Source: Edaphobacter modestus (GTDB lineage Bacteria; Acidobacteriota; Terriglobia; Terriglobales; Acidobacteriaceae). Taken from it: DNA of 64,000 bases. The notes beneath the pieces were generated by a model. It had not been told where the DNA came from. It did not search any database and saw only the letters and a program-made list of their open reading frames with translations. The position numbers were made by a program, and so were the translations under genes. Below, piece by piece: positions 5,924-37,149 of the stretch (the stretch's first letter is position 1; each line of letters begins with the position of its first letter). Location of the stretch: the NCBI RefSeq assembly GCF_004217555.1, contig NZ_SHKW01000001.1, forward strand, positions 2,108,001 through 2,172,000, written 5' to 3'.

Positions 5924-6559
5924 GGTTGCGAGCCTCATCTGCGGGACGATGTCACAAATAGCGTAGCGTCTGGATCTCGACTTTTTCAACACTCATAGGC
6001 CAATGCGCTCATCATGGAGCCCTTGGTTCGTGTTTCGAGTGGATTGTCGGCTAACCGGAACTTATTCACTTGGCCGAATAGTCGGCTTATCGTACAAGTG
6101 GCTTTCCGGTCTCAACGACTCATCTGAAGAAAAAGGCGGGCCATGATGACCATAGGGCACATACAGAACCGCTAGCAAACAGGTTTTTGAGTGCAATAGC
6201 GGTACACTCATCAGCTCTCCTCCTTCCGGCACCATCTCAAATGCCAATGTTCAGAGCTTTACCGTGAGCTTTCGTGCGCTGTAGCCGAGGTGCTTCGGGT
6301 TGGCAAATGCATTTAGGTACGAAATCAGGTACAGTGCGCATCTACTGTAATTTCAGTATTTTGGCTCTGTTTGCAGCTATATTTCTGGTGATTCGTCCTA
6401 TTTACGCTAGATTACGGAATGCTAATCTACGCTCTTCGGCTTCAACTGCTTCGGTTACCTCTTACCTCGTGCCATATGCTCTCCTCGTTCCAGTGTGTCT
6501 CTTAGTCACTGGTACAAAGCAAGCCGGGCACTCCAGCATCAAAGCTGGACATACTTCGT
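5924..6559. other. Gene-free stretch before the GAF activator
   Basis: No coding signal found. Local base composition is AT-richer than the flanks, and open frames (such as 6274-6567) show no recognisable protein. The last 55 bases are open in the frame of the downstream activator and read like coding sequence (KLDILRLVETLSTDLL), with a stop at 6503-6505. The activator's true N-terminus has probably been lost or starts at an unusual codon. Confidence 0.5.
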
Positions 6560-8065
6560 TTGGTTGAGACTCTGTCTACAGATCTGCTGAGAGTGACTCG
6601 GTGTGATTATTGCGCATTGCTCCTACCCGATGCCGATGGCGGAGGCCTGCGTGTAACAACGCTGTATAACCCCGAGGCGCGAGGTTCTCTGTCCGACGGG
6701 ACGATCATACCGAACGACGGTTCCATTTGTGGCACAGCCTTCCGGACCGGCAAGACTCAATACTTTGAGAACTTCGAGGACGTTCGTTATGAGGTCGAAC
6801 GTTCCGGTAGCAGCCTAGGTCGACGTATCTTTCAACGTGTTATTGATGAAGGGTTGGTGTCGGGGTGCGGCCTCCCACTTCTCAGCAGGAACGGCGTAAT
6901 AGGCGTGTTGACGGCCCTCAACCGGTCAGAGAAAGCATTCGACGTAGATGAAATCACTTTTCTCGAACAGGTTGCCCGCCAGGTTGCCATAGCCGTCGAA
7001 AACGCGTTGGATTATGAAAAGGCGATAAGGGATAGAGACAAAGAGACGAAACAGAGACTCTACCTCGAAGAGGAAATTCGCGCTGAGTTCGGGGAAATAG
7101 TCGGAGATAGTCCCGCGTTGAAGACTGCGCTTGATCTGGTTTCCATAGTGGCACCTACAGATTCGAGCACGCTGATTCTGGGCGAGACAGGAACCGGCAA
7201 GGAACTGATCGCACGCGCCATCCACAATCTGAGCAGCCGCCGGGAGCGGCCCTTTGTCAAATTGAACTGCGCAGCAATCCCGCTTGGCCTTCTAGAAAGC
7301 GAATTGTTTGGACACGAAAGAGGAGCGTTCACCGGAGCGATCGCGCAAAAAACAGGACGTTTTGAACTAGCGAATAAGGGAACACTCTTTCTTGACGAGG
7401 TCGGTGACATTCCTCTGGAACTTCAGGCAAAGCTGTTACGAGTCCTGCAAGAACAGGAATTCGAGAGACTCGGCAGCAATTACACCCATAAGGTCGATGT
7501 CCGTGTGATCGCAGCCACACATCGTGATCTGACTGCGATGGTAAAGCAGACTACGTTTCGCGAAGACCTCTATTATCGGTTGAAAGTATTCCCGATTCAT
7601 GTTCCAGCCTTACGACAGCGGACGGAGGACATTCCGAACCTGGTTCGTCATTTCCTGAAACACTACTCGAAGCGAATGAACAAACAGATCGATCAAATCC
7701 CTTCGGAGACAATGGACGCATTAGTGCGGTATCGATGGCCTGGAAACGTTCGGGAACTGCAAAATTTTATCGAACGGGCAGTGATTCTTTCTCCGCACAC
7801 AGTGTTACGTGCCCCAACTGCGGAATTGGAACCGTTCAGCGCTCATAAAGGATCAAACGCGCCATTGACGGGTCTCGAGGAGGTAGAACGAGATCATATC
7901 CTCCGAGCGCTTGATGCGAGCAACTGGGTCGTCGGCGGCCGGAGCGGCGCTGCGGAACGATTGGGGATGAAGCGGACGTCGCTGGTTTACAAAATACAGA
8001 AGCTCGGGATCAGCCGTCCCGTGTCCTTTTCAAAGGGTATCGAGGGTCCTTTACAGCCGGAATGA
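6560..8065 (+). CDS. Sigma-54 activator with GAF sensor domain (FhlA-like)
   Basis: Bacterial enhancer-binding protein, 501 residues from a TTG. A GAF-type sensor fills about residues 1-150 (ligand unknown). The AAA+ domain has Walker A GETGTGKE (208-215), an intact GAFTGA sigma-54 contact loop (255-260), Walker B FLDEVGD and the [15 protein letters not shown] motif near 394. A Fis-type helix-turn-helix closes the protein (about 460-490). Homologues normally carry residues before the first GAF helix, and the reading frame is open back to 6506, so the start is uncertain. A candidate UAS (8120-8149) and a -24/-12 promoter (8238-8253) lie directly downstream, which makes egtB its likely target. 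Confidence 0.88.
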   Translation: MVETLSTDLLRVTRCDYCALLLPDADGGGLRVTTLYNPEARGSLSDGTIIPNDGSICGTAFRTGKTQYFENFEDVRYEVERSGSSLGRRIFQRVIDEGLVSGCGLPLLSRNGVIGVLTALNRSEKAFDVDEITFLEQVARQVAIAVENALDYEKAIRDRDKETKQRLYLEEEIRAEFGEIVGDSPALKTALDLVSIVAPTDSSTLILGETGTGKELIARAIHNLSSRRERPFVKLNCAAIPLGLLESELFGHERGAFTGAIAQKTGRFELANKGTLFLDEVGDIPLELQAKLLRVLQEQEFERLGSNYTHKVDVRVIAATHRDLTAMVKQTTFREDLYYRLKVFPIHVPALRQRTEDIPNLVRHFLKHYSKRMNKQIDQIPSETMDALVRYRWPGNVRELQNFIERAVILSPHTVLRAPTAELEPFSAHKGSNAPLTGLEEVERDHILRALDASNWVVGGRSGAAERLGMKRTSLVYKIQKLGISRPVSFSKGIEGPLQPE

Positions 8066-8119
8066 TTTCTCCTACACTGCATACCGCGCCAGCCCTGCGA
8101 CGGAAGCCTGTCAGTGGCG

Positions 8120-8149
8120 GTCATCAGTCACGATTCCGTCAGTGATGAC
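8120..8149 (+). promoter_or_regulatory. Candidate enhancer (UAS) for the GAF sigma-54 activator
   Basis: GTCATCA (8120-8126) and TGATGAC (8143-8149) form a perfect 7-bp inverted repeat with a 16-bp gap. It ends 88 bp before the -24/-12 promoter, the usual distance for an activator binding site. Assignment to the adjacent activator is inference. Confidence 0.5.
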
Positions 8150-8237
8150 GAGCGTTGCGTTCGACATCTGCGGCAATAGATCATTGCAAATAAATGACTT
8201 ATGCTACTTTGTCGCTGATCTGGAAAATCTCTGCTTT

Positions 8238-8253
8238 TGGCACATTGCTTGCC
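8238..8253 (+). promoter_or_regulatory. Sigma-54 (-24/-12) promoter of egtB
   Basis: TGGCAC-N5-TTGCC matches the sigma-54 consensus TGGCAC-N5-TTGCW except for the final base. It lies about 100 bp before egtB and 170 bp after a sigma-54 activator gene. The promoter before the alcohol dehydrogenase (16818-16833) differs by one base of the spacer. Confidence 0.8.
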
Positions 8254-8354
8254 CAGTACAGTCACGCTGACTTCGGAGCGTACTGTCGTGTTGCGACCGA
8301 ACGCTCCGTCTGCCAACTCAGATTGCGGCAGAGGCTCAGCGGATGAATTGACCC

Positions 8355-9617
8355 ATGTCCACTCTCGAGTCGAAATACAAAGCTGTGCGCTCGATGACGC
8401 GTTCCCTCGTCGCTACTTTGTCTGCCGAAGATCAAATGGTCCAGTCATGTCCAGAGGCCAGTCCAGTCAAATGGCATCAGGCACATACCACATGGTTCTT
8501 TGAAACTTTCGTATTGCGACCATTTCTGGCCGACTATAGGCCCTTTCGTGAAGAGCTTCATCGCCTTTTCAACAGCTATTACATCTCTCTCGGAGAAGAG
8601 ATTCCCGACAAGAAGTTACGCGCGTCATTCTCTCGGCCATCACTCGATGAGGTTCTGGCCTTCCGCGCGCATGTTGATCAAGAAATGGAAAGATTGTTTG
8701 CAGGCTCGATTGACGACGAAGCGTCACGGCGCATCTTGCTGGGCTTAAACCACGAACAGCAACACCAGGAACTGGCACTGACTGACATCAAGCATGCATT
8801 CTTCTCAAATCCGCTGCGACCGTCATATGGATCTGCAACTCTACCGAAAGAGCATCCCCAGCCAATTCCTCAGCTCAAATGGCTCAACTTTGAGGGCGAC
8901 CTTACTGAAATCGGTTATTCATTGAACTCTGAAGAGCCTCTGGACTTTTGCTTTGATAACGAGACGCCACGCCACAGGGTCTACCTGGAACCATTTCAGA
9001 TCGCAAGCCGCGAAGTCACCTGTCGTGAGTATCTGGAGTTTATGTCAGATGACGGATATATGCGTCCCGAACTCTGGCTTTCTGACGGTTGGGAGGCCAT
9101 AGAGCGAGAGGGTTGGGAAGCGCCACTTTACTGGGAACGCGATCCTGGCGATGAGACGGGATGGCGGGTCTTCACGCTAAAAGGGTGGCACGAACTCTCA
9201 GAGTTGCTTGACACTCCCGTATGCCACATCAGTTTCTTCGAGGCTGAAGCCTTCGCGCGCTGGCGTGGCTCTCGACTTCCGACAGAAGCAGAATGGGAAT
9301 CTGTCGCGGGCAAGGCACGCCGGCACGGAAATCTACTCGACACCGGGAGACTGCATCCTGCGTGGGCGAATGATGCGGGTGTTGAGCAACTGTCTGGAGA
9401 CTGCTGGGAATGGACCGCCAGTCCTTACACGGGCTATCCGGGATACAAACCTCTCCCTGGCGCGCTGGGCGAATACAACGGCAAATTTATGTCAAGTCAG
9501 ATGATCTTGCGGGGAGGGTCGTGCGTCACGCCTGCGGATCACGTGCGCGCGACATATCGGAATTTCTTTCATCCGGCGACGCGCTGGCAGTTCACTGGAA
9601 TACGTTTAGCAATTTGA
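8355..9617 (+). CDS. egtB: Ergothioneine biosynthesis protein EgtB (iron-dependent sulfoxide synthase)
   Basis: Joins the sulfur donor (gamma-glutamylcysteine or cysteine) to hercynine with O2. The protein has 420 residues. An N-terminal DinB-like domain carries the iron ligands: H44 in AHTTWFFE, and H133/H137 in LNHEQQHQE. The C-terminal formylglycine-generating-enzyme-like domain includes RLPTEAEWE, CWEWTASPY and the final RATYRNFFHPATRWQFTGIR. Length is full. It is the first gene after a sigma-54 promoter. The next gene, egtD, is broken, so hercynine would have to come from elsewhere. Regulation by the upstream GAF activator is inferred from position. Confidence 0.92.
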   Translation: MSTLESKYKAVRSMTRSLVATLSAEDQMVQSCPEASPVKWHQAHTTWFFETFVLRPFLADYRPFREELHRLFNSYYISLGEEIPDKKLRASFSRPSLDEVLAFRAHVDQEMERLFAGSIDDEASRRILLGLNHEQQHQELALTDIKHAFFSNPLRPSYGSATLPKEHPQPIPQLKWLNFEGDLTEIGYSLNSEEPLDFCFDNETPRHRVYLEPFQIASREVTCREYLEFMSDDGYMRPELWLSDGWEAIEREGWEAPLYWERDPGDETGWRVFTLKGWHELSELLDTPVCHISFFEAEAFARWRGSRLPTEAEWESVAGKARRHGNLLDTGRLHPAWANDAGVEQLSGDCWEWTASPYTGYPGYKPLPGALGEYNGKFMSSQMILRGGSCVTPADHVRATYRNFFHPATRWQFTGIRLAI

Positions 9618-9632: not shown

Positions 9633-9908
9633 ATGACTAAATGCTCTCAGGCATTCGATCTGGAGCACGCGCCTGGATTCGGCGCGTGCTCAGAGCTCAT
9701 CTTCGAGGTTCAGCGTGGGCTGCTTACGTGGCCTCGGTCTCTCGCGCCGTGGATGTTTTACGATGAGCTGGGTTCGGGCCTTTTTGAGCGAATTACAGCT
9801 TTGCCGGAATACTATTTGACCCGTACCGAGAGCGGCAGGGCGGCATCGACGGTGACCGGCTCGCGCTCGACTTCGACCTGCCCGCGCAGGCCGCCCTCGA
9901 TGCCTGAA
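9633..9908 (+). pseudogene. egtD: Truncated egtD (histidine methyltransferase) remnant
   Basis: The first about 66 codons match the start of EgtD, the SAM-dependent histidine N-methyltransferase: SLAPWMFYDELGSGLFERIT followed by ALPEYYLTRTE, ending at 9830. The similarity then stops abruptly, and all SAM-binding motifs of the normal roughly 320-residue enzyme are missing. The following DNA is GC-richer; in another frame it reads GGIDGDRLALDFDLPAQ and stops at 9908, which looks like the C-terminus of an unrelated gene. The break is therefore a junction rather than a point mutation. The egtB-egtD order is usual for ergothioneine operons. Confidence 0.75.
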
Positions 9909-10042
9909 CACAGGAGCACGGGCGCCTGCCGATTTCCAATGGGCATCAAGTCGCAGATCGTCGCAATAAGTCAGCTTCATAACAGTTATGTAAGCTGCTC
10001 AAAACAGAGCACACGTCCGCAGACATTTCGAAAGGAGTCCAA

Positions 10043-11761
10043 GTGAGATTCAGACGAATCTTTGTTTTTGCTACACGCCGTCGCCGCTCGCGAATCTTTC
10101 ATCCGATTGTCGAGCTCGCTCTATCTATACTCTGCTGGCAAAACATCGCAATGGCGCAAACACAGGTACATCACCATCACGGGCCAGAAGGGATCCCTCC
10201 GGAAGTCATTGAGAAGCTTGGGACGGTACAGATGCCAATCTCCTGTGCTGCGTCAACAAGCACAACATTCGAGCGTGGTGTGGCGATGCTTCACTCGTTT
10301 TGGTACGAAGAAGCACGAAAGGAGTTTACGTCCGTAGCAACGACGGACCCATCATGCGCCATGGCGCAGTGGGGTCTTGCGATGACAGAATGGCGTCCAT
10401 TTTGGGACGGAATGCCAGAGGATCGTCGGCGTGAGGGAGTCGTTGAAATTGACAGAGCCTTAGCGTTAGCTCCGAAAACGGATCGGGAACGCCGATATAT
10501 CACAGCGCTGAGCGGATATTTGCATGGCGATTCGGCGCACGATGATCTCGCTCTTGCAAGCTACGTCAACGCGATGGGAGCCCTGCACAGGGCTTACCCG
10601 GACGATGTTGAAGCTCTTGCGTTCTACGGATTAGCTCTTGCTGCCGCGGCAAATGTTGACTCCAAGGATCCGATTGGGGCAGACCGCAAAGCTCTAGCAG
10701 TGCTAGAGCTTGGTTTCAAGGCCCATCCAGATCACCCAGGTTTTGCTCACTATATCATCCACACGTGTGATAACCCTGTGCTGGCTCGCGAAGCTTTGCC
10801 GGCAGCCGAACGATATGCCGCGATTGCTCCGGCATCAGCTCATGCGCTCCATATGCCGGGGCATATCTTCGCGCGACTAGGGATGTGGCCTGATGATATC
10901 TCTAGCAATCTTGCCTCGGTACAGGCCTCCAAACTTGCTGAGAAGGAGCATCTTGATGGCGTTTCGCATGAAATGCACGCATATGAATTTTTGTTATACG
11001 CGTACCTGCAGGAAGCAAGCGATTCCAAGGCTGACCAAATCTATGAATTGGTTAACCCAACGATAGCCCATCTCAAAACTGTCCCGGGGATCCAGGATGA
11101 TGGGATGTTCGTTTTCCTCGGCTATTTCACTGCCGAATTACCGTCGATCTATCACCTCGAAAGACATGAATGGAAGGAGGTTCTTGCACTTCACTATCCC
11201 GGTGGTTCTATGCGTTCTGCTGACTATTATCTGGACTGGTCTCAGGCAATAGCTGCCGGGCATCTGCACGATGTCGTTACGGTCGACCGAGTCGCCGCCC
11301 ATGCACAATCGATATACCAAGCAGTATCCCGTGAGGGATCGCCAATTTCCGCCGAGGAACGCGCTACTTTCTTAACTATCCAGGGCTGGCAAGCCTACGC
11401 GCATGGACGTAACGCGGAAGCGCTCGCCAAGCTTAGTGAAGCGGCGGATGAACAAGACCGCGTTGGCCAGGCCGAGGTTGATATCCCGGCTCGTGAGATG
11501 TATGCCGACATGCTCTATAGTTTGGATCGTCCGAAAGACGCGCTTACTCAGTACAAAACAGATTTACGCCTCAGTCCAAACAGGTTCAACGGGTTGGCGG
11601 GTGCTGCTCGTGCTGCCGCTAAAGATGGTCATCCTCAAGAAGCCCGATCCTATTACGGGCAACTTCTCAAAATTACAGGAGGAGGAAGTTCATCTTGTCG
11701 GCCCGAGATCGATACGGCGCGGAAGACGATGGCGAGTTCCCAGGCGCCGGAAACAAAATGA
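10043..11761 (+). CDS. Exported TPR-repeat protein
   Basis: A 572-residue protein from a GTG at 10043, chosen because AAAGGAG (10031-10037) precedes it with correct spacing. The N-terminus is basic (RFRRIF, RRRRSR) and is followed by a hydrophobic stretch ending AMAQ, a probable signal peptide. A His-rich HHHHGPEG follows the cleavage site and could bind metal. The body is a series of TPR-like helical pairs (for example FWYEEARKEFTSVATTDPSCAMAQWGLA), and the HYIIHTCDNP and HALHMPGHIF motifs are typical of a widespread uncharacterised TPR family. It lies downstream of the egtB promoter; the gap of about 210 bp leaves co-transcription open. Confidence 0.8.
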   Translation: MRFRRIFVFATRRRRSRIFHPIVELALSILCWQNIAMAQTQVHHHHGPEGIPPEVIEKLGTVQMPISCAASTSTTFERGVAMLHSFWYEEARKEFTSVATTDPSCAMAQWGLAMTEWRPFWDGMPEDRRREGVVEIDRALALAPKTDRERRYITALSGYLHGDSAHDDLALASYVNAMGALHRAYPDDVEALAFYGLALAAAANVDSKDPIGADRKALAVLELGFKAHPDHPGFAHYIIHTCDNPVLAREALPAAERYAAIAPASAHALHMPGHIFARLGMWPDDISSNLASVQASKLAEKEHLDGVSHEMHAYEFLLYAYLQEASDSKADQIYELVNPTIAHLKTVPGIQDDGMFVFLGYFTAELPSIYHLERHEWKEVLALHYPGGSMRSADYYLDWSQAIAAGHLHDVVTVDRVAAHAQSIYQAVSREGSPISAEERATFLTIQGWQAYAHGRNAEALAKLSEAADEQDRVGQAEVDIPAREMYADMLYSLDRPKDALTQYKTDLRLSPNRFNGLAGAARAAAKDGHPQEARSYYGQLLKITGGGSSSCRPEIDTARKTMASSQAPETK

Positions 11762-14859: not shown

Positions 14860-16662
14860 ATGCTCTCGGTCGATTCCCAAATGTCGGAGGATAATCTTAG
14901 GCAGGTCATCGACACGCTTCCCACTTTGGTTTGGTGCACTCGACCTGATGGTTCTACGGAGTTCCTTAACAAGCGCTGGCATGATTACACAGGTTGTTCT
15001 CCGGAGGAGTCGCGTGTCCATGGATGGCAACCTACAGTTCATCCGGAGGACCTGCCCCGCGTCGTAGCCAAAGGACAAGAGTTGTTGGCATCGGGACAGC
15101 CAGGCGAAGTTGAAGGACGTATTCGCCGCCATGATGGAGTATTTCGCTGGTTTCTTTTGCGTGTCGAGCCCCTGCGGGACGAGACTGGCAAAATCGTCAG
15201 GTGGTACGGAGTTCAAACCGACATCGACGACCTTAAGCAGATTGAAGAGAAGCTGCGAGAAGAGGATCGCGAACTGCGCCGGATCACCGACGCCATTCCG
15301 CAGACAATTGTGGTGGTAGATACGAGCGGCGTTCCTATCTATGCAAACCAGGCGATGCTCGACTATGCGGGGCTCTCGGCCGAAGATATACTCACGTCTG
15401 GCTTCCGTGAACGTTTCTCTCATCCCGACGGTCTCGAAAAGCTCAAAGAACAACGGGCGGCTGGTCTCTCGCGCGGACTTCCGTTCGAACTAGAGCATCG
15501 AGCGCGGCGGAAGGACGGAGAGTATCGTTGGTGCCTGGTTCGATTCAACCCATTCCGCGATGAGATGGGTCGCGTCGTTCGTTGGTATGCGACGGGAACT
15601 GACATCGATGATCGAGTTAAAGCTGAAGAGAGGACACGCAACGAGAACCAAGTATTGCGAGAGCAGATCGATCGGGACTCGATGTTTGAGGATATTGTCG
15701 GATCCTCGGAAGCACTTCGCAAAGTCCTCCGTCAAGTCGCGAAGGTAGCGTCGTCCGATTCCACTGTCCTGATTCTGGGTGAAACCGGCACAGGAAAAGA
15801 ATTAATTGCGCGCGCCATTCACAAGCGATCCAAGCGCGCGTCACGGGCATTTATCGGGGTCAACTGTGCTGCCATCCCGCCATCACTGATAGCTTCCGAG
15901 CTTTTTGGCTATGAGAAGGGAGCCTTCACTGGCGCGACACAACGTCGCTTGGGTCGCTTCGAGTCGGCGAGCGGCGGAACCCTTTTTCTGGACGAAGTAG
16001 GCGACCTGCCCTTGGATATCCAAATCGCTCTCCTAAGAGTGCTGCAGGAGCGCGAAATCCAACGCGTCGGCGGTAACACCGCAATTTCTGTTGACGTGAG
16101 AGTGTTGGCGGCAACTCATCGAGATCTGGATGTGCTAGTGGCCGACGGCAAGTTCCGTGAAGATCTCCTGTATCGCCTCAACGTCGTACCCATTGTCGTG
16201 CCTTCGCTGCGTGAACGTGCAGATGACCTTCCTCTACTCGTCGAGTACTTTATTACGCGTTTCGGAAAAAACGCCGGCAAGACGTTCAGGGCAATCGATG
16301 ACAAGACACTCAATTTGTTTCGAGCTTATGGCTGGCCCGGAAATGTCCGTGAGTTACAGAACGTAATCGAGCGAGCCGTGATCTTGAGTGAAGGCGATAT
16401 CTGTGCTGTGGACGAGACCTGGCTCAAGCGGCCTTCCTCCCACACAGCAGCTAGCCCGGCGTTTGCGCTTAGTGGTGTTCTGCATAAGAGGGAAAAAGAG
16501 ATGATCGAAGCCGCGCTTGCGGCAAGTAACGGACGCGTCTCGGGCCCAACGGGCGCAGCAACGAAGCTCGGCATCCCAACCAAGACGCTCGATTCGAAGA
16601 TAGGGCGATTGGGAATCAATAAATACCAGTTCAGGGCTTCCGGCACCGAGCCCTTCGCGTAA
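14860..16662 (+). CDS. Sigma-54 activator with two PAS domains
   Basis: A 600-residue enhancer-binding protein. Two PAS/PAC units fill about residues 10-130 and 135-260. AAA+ follows with Walker A GETGTGKE (307-314), GAFTGA (354-359), FLDEVGD and [12 protein letters not shown]-terminal Fis-like helix-turn-helix includes [23 protein letters not shown] units may bind haem, flavin or a small ligand; the sequence does not decide which. A -24/-12 promoter lies 155 bp downstream in front of the alcohol dehydrogenase operon, the likely target. A truncated paralogue is at 35392-37149. Confidence 0.9.
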
Positions 16663-16817: not shown

Positions 16818-16833
16818 TGGCACTTTGCTTGCC
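16818..16833 (+). promoter_or_regulatory. Sigma-54 (-24/-12) promoter of the ADH-ALDH operon
   Basis: TGGCAC-TTTGC-TTGCC, with the GG and GC pairs at correct spacing, about 95 bp before the first gene. It is nearly identical to the egtB promoter at 8238-8253. No other promoter-like sequence is apparent before 16929. Confidence 0.8.
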
Positions 16834-35391: not shown

Positions 35392-37149
35392 GAGGCTGCC
35401 CGGCTCCAGACCGTCATCGACACGGTTCCATCTTTCTTGTGGACGAGTTTCCCTGATGGGTCCAAGGAATATCTGAACAAACGCTGGTACGAGTACACCG
35501 GTCTGACCCAGGAACAGGGGAAAGGTTGGGGTTGGAAGGTGGTCGTTCACCCGGATGACTTGGATCGACTCATTCGTGAATGGCTAGCCTTGCTGGATGA
35601 TCCCAAACCAGGCGAACTGGAAACCCGCATCCGTCGATATGACGGAGAGTACCGATGGTTCCTCATACGTGTCGTTCCAGAATTCGACACTGAAGGCAAC
35701 GTCGTCAGGTGGTTTGGAAGCAATACCGACATCGAAGATCGAAAAAGAGCGGAGAAGAAACTCCTTGAGGACGAGCTAGAGTTTCGCCGGATTACCGATG
35801 CTATTCCGCAGAGCATTGCCGTGCTTGACCCGAACGGCGTTGTGCTCTACGTGAACCAATCATCTCTCGACTATACCGGCCTCACTGCCCAAGACTTGTC
35901 TTCTCCAGAAGCTCGTGAGCGGGTCATCCATCCGGACGACGTAGAGAGAATACGGGACGAGCGGAGGGCCGCTCTTGCGCGCGGCCTTCCGTTTGAGTTT
36001 GAGGAGAGAAAACTGGGGAAGGACGGGCAATATCGCTGGTTCCTCATCCGCTACAACCCGTTCCGCGACGAACAGGGACGCCCGGTGCGCTGGTATGCGA
36101 CGGGAACTGACATCGATGATCGCAAGCGCGCCGAAGACCGGACACGAAACGAAAACGTTGCGTTGCGCGAAGACATCGTACGCTCATCCATGTTCGAGGA
36201 AATCGTCGGTTCCTCCGAGCCATTACGTCGTGTGCTGGTTCAAGTTTCCAAGGTAGCTCCGACGGATTCCACAGTCTTGGTCTTAGGTGAAACCGGAACA
36301 GGAAAGGAGCTGATTGCTCGCGCAATTCATAACCGGTCCAAGCGTTCAAACCGTGCTTTCATACGAGTGAATTGCGCGGCGATTCCGACATCGCTGATTG
36401 CCTCCGAACTGTTCGGTCACGAAAGAGGATCCTTCACGGGGGCCACTCAGCGCCGCCTAGGTCGTTTCGAATCGGCCGATGGAGGAACGATCTTCCTCGA
36501 TGAAGTAGGCGATCTTCCGCCAGAGACGCAGGTCACATTGCTGCGAGTTCTTCAGGAGCGGGAATTCGAGCGAGTGGGCGGTACTCAAACCGTTTCGGTT
36601 GACGTGCGGGTGATAGCGGCTACCAATCGAGACCTGCCCACAGCGGTGGCTGAAGGGACGCTCCGTCAGGATTTGTTTTACCGTCTCAATGTTTTTCCGA
36701 TTCGATTACCCGCGTTGCGCGAGCGCATTGGTGATATTTCGTTGTTGGTCGAATACCTGATCGACCGTTACGCCCAAAAAGCAGGTAAGAAGATTCGAAA
36801 TATAGACAAGAAGTCAATGGAACTCTTCCGCACGTATGACTGGCCAGGCAACATCCGAGAGTTGCAAAACGTAGTCGAGCGGGCGGTGATTCTATCTGAA
36901 GGGGAGACTTTCTTCGTAGATGAAGCCTGGCTTACGCGCGTGCCTCCCAAGTTGGCTGCGAAGTCTGTTCCGCTGGTTGCTGACCTCGTCGAGCACGAAA
37001 GGGAAATGCTCGAAGCCGCACTTCGGGAATCCGAAGGCGTAATTGGGGGTCCAACCGGCGCTGCCATTAAGCTGGGCATTCCTCGCCAGACCCTAGAATC
37101 AAAAATAAGGAAGCTGGGTATAAACCGGCACCACTTTAAGGCTTCTTGA
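35392..37149 (+). pseudogene. Sigma-54 activator with two PAS domains, start missing
   Basis: Paralogue of 14860-16662 over 585 residues: two PAS/PAC units, AAA+ with GETGTGKE, Walker [18 protein letters not shown] and a Fis-type helix-turn-helix ([20 protein letters not shown]). The sigma-54 loop is GSFTGA (codons 36427-36444) instead of GAFTGA. Homology begins at [12 protein letters not shown]; about 12 residues, the start and the promoter are missing where it meets the SDR head to head. An open frame continues upstream through SDR antisense to 34621, but that part is not a real domain. No -24/-12 promoter follows it. Confidence 0.75.

Follow-up and report, generated by a model that had tools for sequence, protein, structure and literature searches.

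Transcription from sigma-54 promoters depends on activators that bind enhancers, reach the promoter by DNA looping and use ATP to open it with RpoN-containing RNA polymerase; NtrC, NifA, NorR and FhlA are of this type. The reactive-chlorine genes rclABC of Escherichia coli are under an AraC-type regulator, RclR. We analysed a 64,000-nucleotide (nt) window of the Edaphobacter modestus genome (contig NZ_SHKW01000001.1, positions 2,108,001 to 2,172,000; G000:C1:2108001-2172000 in our numbering, G000 being the 7.4-Mb genome of the window itself), in which a predicted sigma-54 activator gene lies before egtB, the gene for ergothioneine sulfoxide synthase. Judging from sequence comparisons, this locus is probably (at about 0.72) a reduced copy of a sigma-54 regulon carried by some Terriglobia, with egtB as one of its targets.

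Ergothioneine is reported to scavenge hypochlorous acid (HOCl) faster than ascorbate or glutathione does (PMC7402156). The accessible part of a study of Mycobacterium smegmatis describes egtB as most strongly up-regulated by diamide, a thiol-stress response, in a single-egtB context and with sigma-54 control not named in that part (PMC10693628). In Sphingopyxis granuli, the accessible text places putative egtB and egtD genes under an EcfG-type stress sigma factor (PMC7083833). This resembles the present locus in using an alternative, stress-related sigma factor, but in the account given there the factor is of the extracytoplasmic function (ECF) kind rather than sigma-54, has no dedicated activator and belongs to another phylum. 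The preliminary description of the Edaphobacter locus named no known account of direct sigma-54 control of ergothioneine synthesis. We found neither such control nor this regulon in the open-access literature, although the EcfG report shows a different alternative sigma factor described as controlling putative egtB and egtD genes. RclA and sigma-54 were mentioned together there only in adjacent rows of a gene list (PMC12684718, accessible part). Sigma-54 activators and their enhancers are of a known kind, and it is egtB within a sigma-54 regulon that we did not find in print.

From position 6506 the window holds, in order, the activator, 289 bp of intergenic DNA, egtB and a frame with a fragment of egtD. 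The preliminary description had named a GAF-AAA-Fis activator, a near-perfect sigma-54 promoter and egtB at this place, and all three identifications hold. The features are as follows.

6560..8065, + strand: sigma-54 activator (GAF, AAA+ with GAFTGA, Fis-type helix-turn-helix), from Pfam, NCBIfam, orthologues and a 16-protein alignment
8107..8141, + strand: enhancer-like block, CCGTCA-S-TGNCGG, followed 17 and 28 bp downstream by more GTC(A) elements, the presumed activator site, from conservation and genome pattern tests
8120..8149, no strand: inverted repeat GTCATCA (8120-8126) / TGATGAC (8143-8149), present here, not kept across relatives
8238..8252, + strand: sigma-54 promoter, -24 TGGCAC and -12 TTGC, from the exact motif and a core aligned in relatives
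8355..9617, + strand: egtB, 420 residues, ergothioneine sulfoxide synthase, from TIGR03440 and alignment with Chloracidobacterium EgtB structures
9633..10046, + strand: egtD-fragment frame, about 43 matching residues

The promoter reads TGGCAC-ATTGC-TTGC at 8238-8252, 117 nt ahead of the egtB ATG, and a transcript would be expected to start near 8264. As stand-alone evidence the exact motif was rejected: TGGCAC-N5-TTGC has 22 matches in the genome and the reversed pattern 15. Because the motif alone is weak evidence, we compared the locus with its relatives. When bacterial and archaeal genomes were scanned with six aligned EgtB proteins, 72 egtB loci emerged; a first pass covered 35 of them, and the count of promoter cores against activators covered all 72. 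Some loci of the analysis as a whole are one record present twice (L055/L066, L056/L067, L058/L070 and L069/L178). The activator (69.9-100% identical to the query, ending 100-600 nt before egtB) lay directly upstream in 11 of the 72. A TGG-N8-TTGC core stood within 200 nt of egtB in all 11 activator-linked loci and in 2 of the other 61 (P = 2.6 × 10−11, Fisher test, relatedness ignored). Of the two exceptions, L070 (Granulicella sp. L60) carries the block as well and belongs to genome G053, in which the activator is on another contig. For L088, 2.5 kb of upstream sequence gave no activator match and the stretch inspected showed no block, and its core may be due to chance.

The aligned upstream regions of the window and 12 relatives all carry the core (13/13), and the DNA between the conserved parts drifts. 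Across 32 distinct sites, one of which (in G035) looks like a chance match, the block has the consensus CCGTCAgTGnCGGa..TCnGTCnC...TTCGTCA, and the promoter follows it by 81-101 bp. The 7-bp inverted repeat to which the preliminary description assigned enhancer distance is indeed present, but it is not kept across the aligned upstream regions and was rejected as a conserved site; it is the overlapping block at 8107-8141 that is kept. A sigma-70-like match (9 of 12) lies upstream of the block, at 8050-8078.

Block and promoter were then combined as GTCANTG-N21-GTCA-N{80,110}-TGG-N8-TTGC, with the reversed pattern as control. Among 62 genomes of the genus this gave 11 matches in seven and none for the control. 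The genome of the window contributed a single match, at the egtB locus (control 0), and a looser form of the pattern added one further, unrelated-looking place. A near-relative of the activator (at least 74%) was found in 7 of the 62 genomes among the matches listed, that of the window being shortened and that of G034 broken; it occurred in six of the seven pattern-bearing genomes and in one of the other 55 (P = 7.8 × 10−7). At the level of the class, a stricter pattern had 14 matches in 9 of 399 genomes (reversed control 0). Among the matches listed, the activator (66-81% identical) was present in all five further pattern-bearing genomes, one of which (G403) is the record of L069 and not independent, and in 1 of 19 non-bearing genomes picked by hand, mostly from the same genera. 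In a sample of the phylum the pattern was confined to the window's own genome (1/297; 0/264 outside the class).

The idea that egtB is the sole target was rejected, as block and promoter recur before other genes of an island found in relatives. They precede an alpha/beta hydrolase gene in L069, L148, L154, L155 and L158, a DUF417 gene in L064, L145, L147 and L160, and a gene for an RclA-like flavoprotein in L143, L149 and L157. In one locus each, they precede genes for a DUF427 protein (L150), a class II aldolase-like protein (L064) and another type of hydrolase (L151), and unnamed frames follow the sites in L092 and L153. Across 23 mapped loci, which include some records twice, the recurring order is activator, site, egtB, site, hydrolases, short-chain dehydrogenase/reductase (SDR), site, DUF417 gene and RclA-like gene. 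The RclA-like flavoprotein and the RclC-like DUF417 protein recall E. coli rclABC, with scores below the curated cut-offs (348.8 and 344.9 of 740 for the former; 50.7 and 62.8 of 275 for the latter). In L076 and L077 egtD is retained behind egtB, which may be the ancestral arrangement.

Two observations were made beside these islands. The L092 site (962-1097) comprises a full block and core before a 1013-residue frame, with a piece of a further activator just upstream. In G053 (L136, G053:C12, 11706-14793) the surroundings of the activator include a catalase-peroxidase gene and also a PerR/Fur-like gene with a TGG-N8-TTGC match upstream.

Co-occurrence, conservation and recurrence before other island genes give good support to control of egtB by the adjacent activator. 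The earlier proposal of direct sigma-54 control is partly supported: activator, block and core are associated, but the egtB here is a second copy in the genome, the presumed regulon reaches beyond egtB and the first GAF domain (GAF1) is missing here. An NtrC-type activator, with two GAF domains in relatives and one here, would bind the enhancer block upstream of -24/-12 promoters and open them with RpoN polymerase. Its targets in relatives would include a second egtB (with egtD in L076 and L077), the alpha/beta hydrolase, the RclC-like membrane protein and the RclA-like flavoprotein, and further the DUF427 and class II aldolase-like proteins. Induction would raise ergothioneine above the output of a housekeeping egtB/egtD pair.

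The activator matches the Pfam families GAF, Sigma54_activat (PF00158; 245.6 bits, cut-off 20.2), AAA_lid_14 and HTH_8 (the Fis-type helix-turn-helix, PF02954; 37.6 bits, cut-off 22), and its GAFTGA letters are kept in all 16 aligned orthologues. In this order of domains, and in an enhancer placed upstream of a -24/-12 promoter, the system is like those of NtrC, NifA, NorR and FhlA. Its targets are unlike theirs, and the protein does not reach the cut-offs that NCBIfam sets for FhlA (478.8 of 830), NifA (402.9 of 528.85) and NorR (365.1 of 476). An rpoN gene is present in the genome. The relatives' activators (L055, L056, L057) have 720-748 residues and two GAF domains, and conservation is stronger in GAF1 than in GAF2 (mean pairwise identities of 74% and 57% in 15 relatives). 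Against PDB sequences GAF1 had two weak matches, one to a diguanylate cyclase (E = 0.0011) and one to a phosphohydrolase (E = 0.0064), and for this reason we propose no ligand.

The window encodes more sequences of this class. A second activator, with two PAS domains, lies at 14860-16662; after it come an exact TGGCAC-N5-TTGC at 16818-16833 and then alcohol- and aldehyde-dehydrogenase-like genes, a layout like that of the egtB locus with another sensor. At 36112-37128 a third sigma-54 activator AAA+ domain is encoded, 52% identical to the egtB-adjacent activator.

The EgtB of the window scores 533.7 bits against TIGR03440 (cut-off 360) and falls below the cut-off for the selenoneine synthase SenA (NF041186; 331.6, cut-off 420). 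Residues 6-419 align with Chloracidobacterium thermophilum EgtB (PDB 6qki, 6o6l, 8qf6; 443 bits), a full-length match to an enzyme of the same kind. Y75-Y76 and H44, H133 and H137 are matched by identical residues in 6qki, and we take the three histidines to be the iron ligands. Tyr93 and Tyr94 are described as essential in the accessible part of a study of the Chloracidobacterium enzyme (PMC10903977), and with a presumed offset in numbering Y75-Y76 would be this pair. With the tyrosine pair included in the alignment, the EgtB of the window should be active.

This is not the genome's only ergothioneine locus, a possibility that we rejected: among the matches listed there is a second egtB (61%) near 2.44 Mb, together with the only full egtD. 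Each of the genomes G000, G002, G036, G041 and G053, which carry this egtB with the activator, has another egtB match at 57-61% identity among those listed, and the paired copies fit an inducible copy beside a housekeeping one. In an egtB tree of 35 rows (34 of the 72 loci were offered, L104 and L106 fell out as short frames, and three others were added), all 12 activator-linked rows belong to a single clade of 17 rows (support 100/99) that does not include the genome's other egtB. The activator-linkage label needs four changes on this tree, where shuffled labels need 10.2 on average. The rows nearest to the window's egtB are Granulicella sp. dw_53 and G. mallensis.

Several points weigh against the reading as a reduced regulon. 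Some of the loci that the pattern later found had served to derive it; matches at those loci are expected because of this, and the independent part lies in the new genomes and the new target genes. G035 has a pattern match without the activator among the matches listed, at a site that misfits the wider consensus, G034 has a broken activator and no pattern match, and G273 has activator and block before a hydrolase gene with no recognisable core. A core lies within 420 nt upstream of 11 of the 26 island genes checked, several having none, and 5 of the 17 members of the egtB clade have no adjacent activator. The activator of the window itself lacks an ATG or GTG start at the 5' end; its frame is open from 6506, and the earliest usual start codon is TTG at 6560. 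It joins the 16-protein alignment just ahead of GAF2 and so lacks the N-terminal GAF1, and neither the window nor the preceding 8 kb showed a remnant of that domain; the response here may therefore be altered or absent. For activator and egtB, the ratio of nonsynonymous to synonymous substitution rates (dN/dS) against five relatives is 0.06-0.11, with 0.05-0.12 among the relatives, but dS is near or above 1, which makes this a weak test.

The rest of the island is mostly missing from the window's genome. A displaced part lies at about 2.598-2.601 Mb (G000:C1; L183, 8444-10521), where an interrupted RclA-like gene stands beside an open DUF417 frame. This RclA-like sequence is the genome's best match, 79% over 465 residues, with three stops reported; the DUF417 gene has a TGG-N8-TTGC core upstream, but the pattern as a whole has no match there. 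For the hydrolase no orthologue was found in the genome, the best match being 37% over part of the length. The egtD frame at 9633-10046 scores 55 bits (cut-off 290.9), covers profile positions 5-47 of 301 and is presumed to be a pseudogene. About 0.6 kb from the displaced part is a frame that, on visual inspection, resembles a transposase. The window itself carries an IS91-family transposase gene (485-1681; 417 bits, cut-off 125) about 5 kb before the shortened activator, a possible source of rearrangement.

With GAF1 absent from the activator, only a fragment of egtD behind egtB, an interrupted RclA-like gene and no hydrolase orthologue found, regulation in this genome is probably altered, either constitutive or lost, with egtB, promoter and block remaining. 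The same losses, and the missing ATG or GTG start, would also be explained if the system were dead here, the shortened activator being inactive or not made and egtB silent or driven by another promoter. To this we give somewhat less than an even chance, as egtB, promoter and block are intact, the activator frame is still open for 501 codons with GAFTGA and the Fis-type helix-turn-helix, and the dN/dS values, within the limit noted above, are like those of relatives.

As to the signal, the RclA/RclC-like neighbours, the scavenging of HOCl by ergothioneine and the diamide response of M. smegmatis egtB lead us to suspect an oxidant or electrophile, with less confidence than for the regulon itself. 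We tentatively suggest, as one possibility among several, that the tandem-GAF activator senses such a compound, perhaps reactive chlorine, and switches on a second ergothioneine synthase along with the RclA/RclC-like and hydrolase genes, inducible and housekeeping synthesis being separate. The regulon could instead be catabolic rather than protective, its hydrolases, SDR and flavoprotein handling a compound sensed by GAF and ergothioneine being accessory. Alpha/beta hydrolases and an SDR are the commonest partners beside egtB in relatives, the first hydrolase of their island resembles haloalkane dehalogenases (below their cut-offs), and in G300 a site lies between activator and hydrolase, with no egtB in the stretch examined; the egtB, RclA-like and RclC-like members point to oxidant defence, and we consider a catabolic role unlikely. 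A chance match of the promoter-like motif in the intergenic region, which its slight enrichment in the genome would allow, is highly improbable given its conservation and co-occurrence in relatives, which already strongly disfavour it, and a core in just 269 of 22,000 shuffled 200-nt stretches.

If this locus is indeed what is left of a sigma-54 regulon, egtB would join the known sigma-54 targets, and the Acidobacteriota would gain a readable regulon. The signal that calls for ergothioneine would be testable through a defined enhancer, promoter and activator that are intact in Granulicella and Edaphobacter strains, among them G. mallensis X5P3 and E. lichenicola X5P2 (whole islands in L064 and L067), and the reduced copy in this genome would be a natural test of the role of the first GAF domain.

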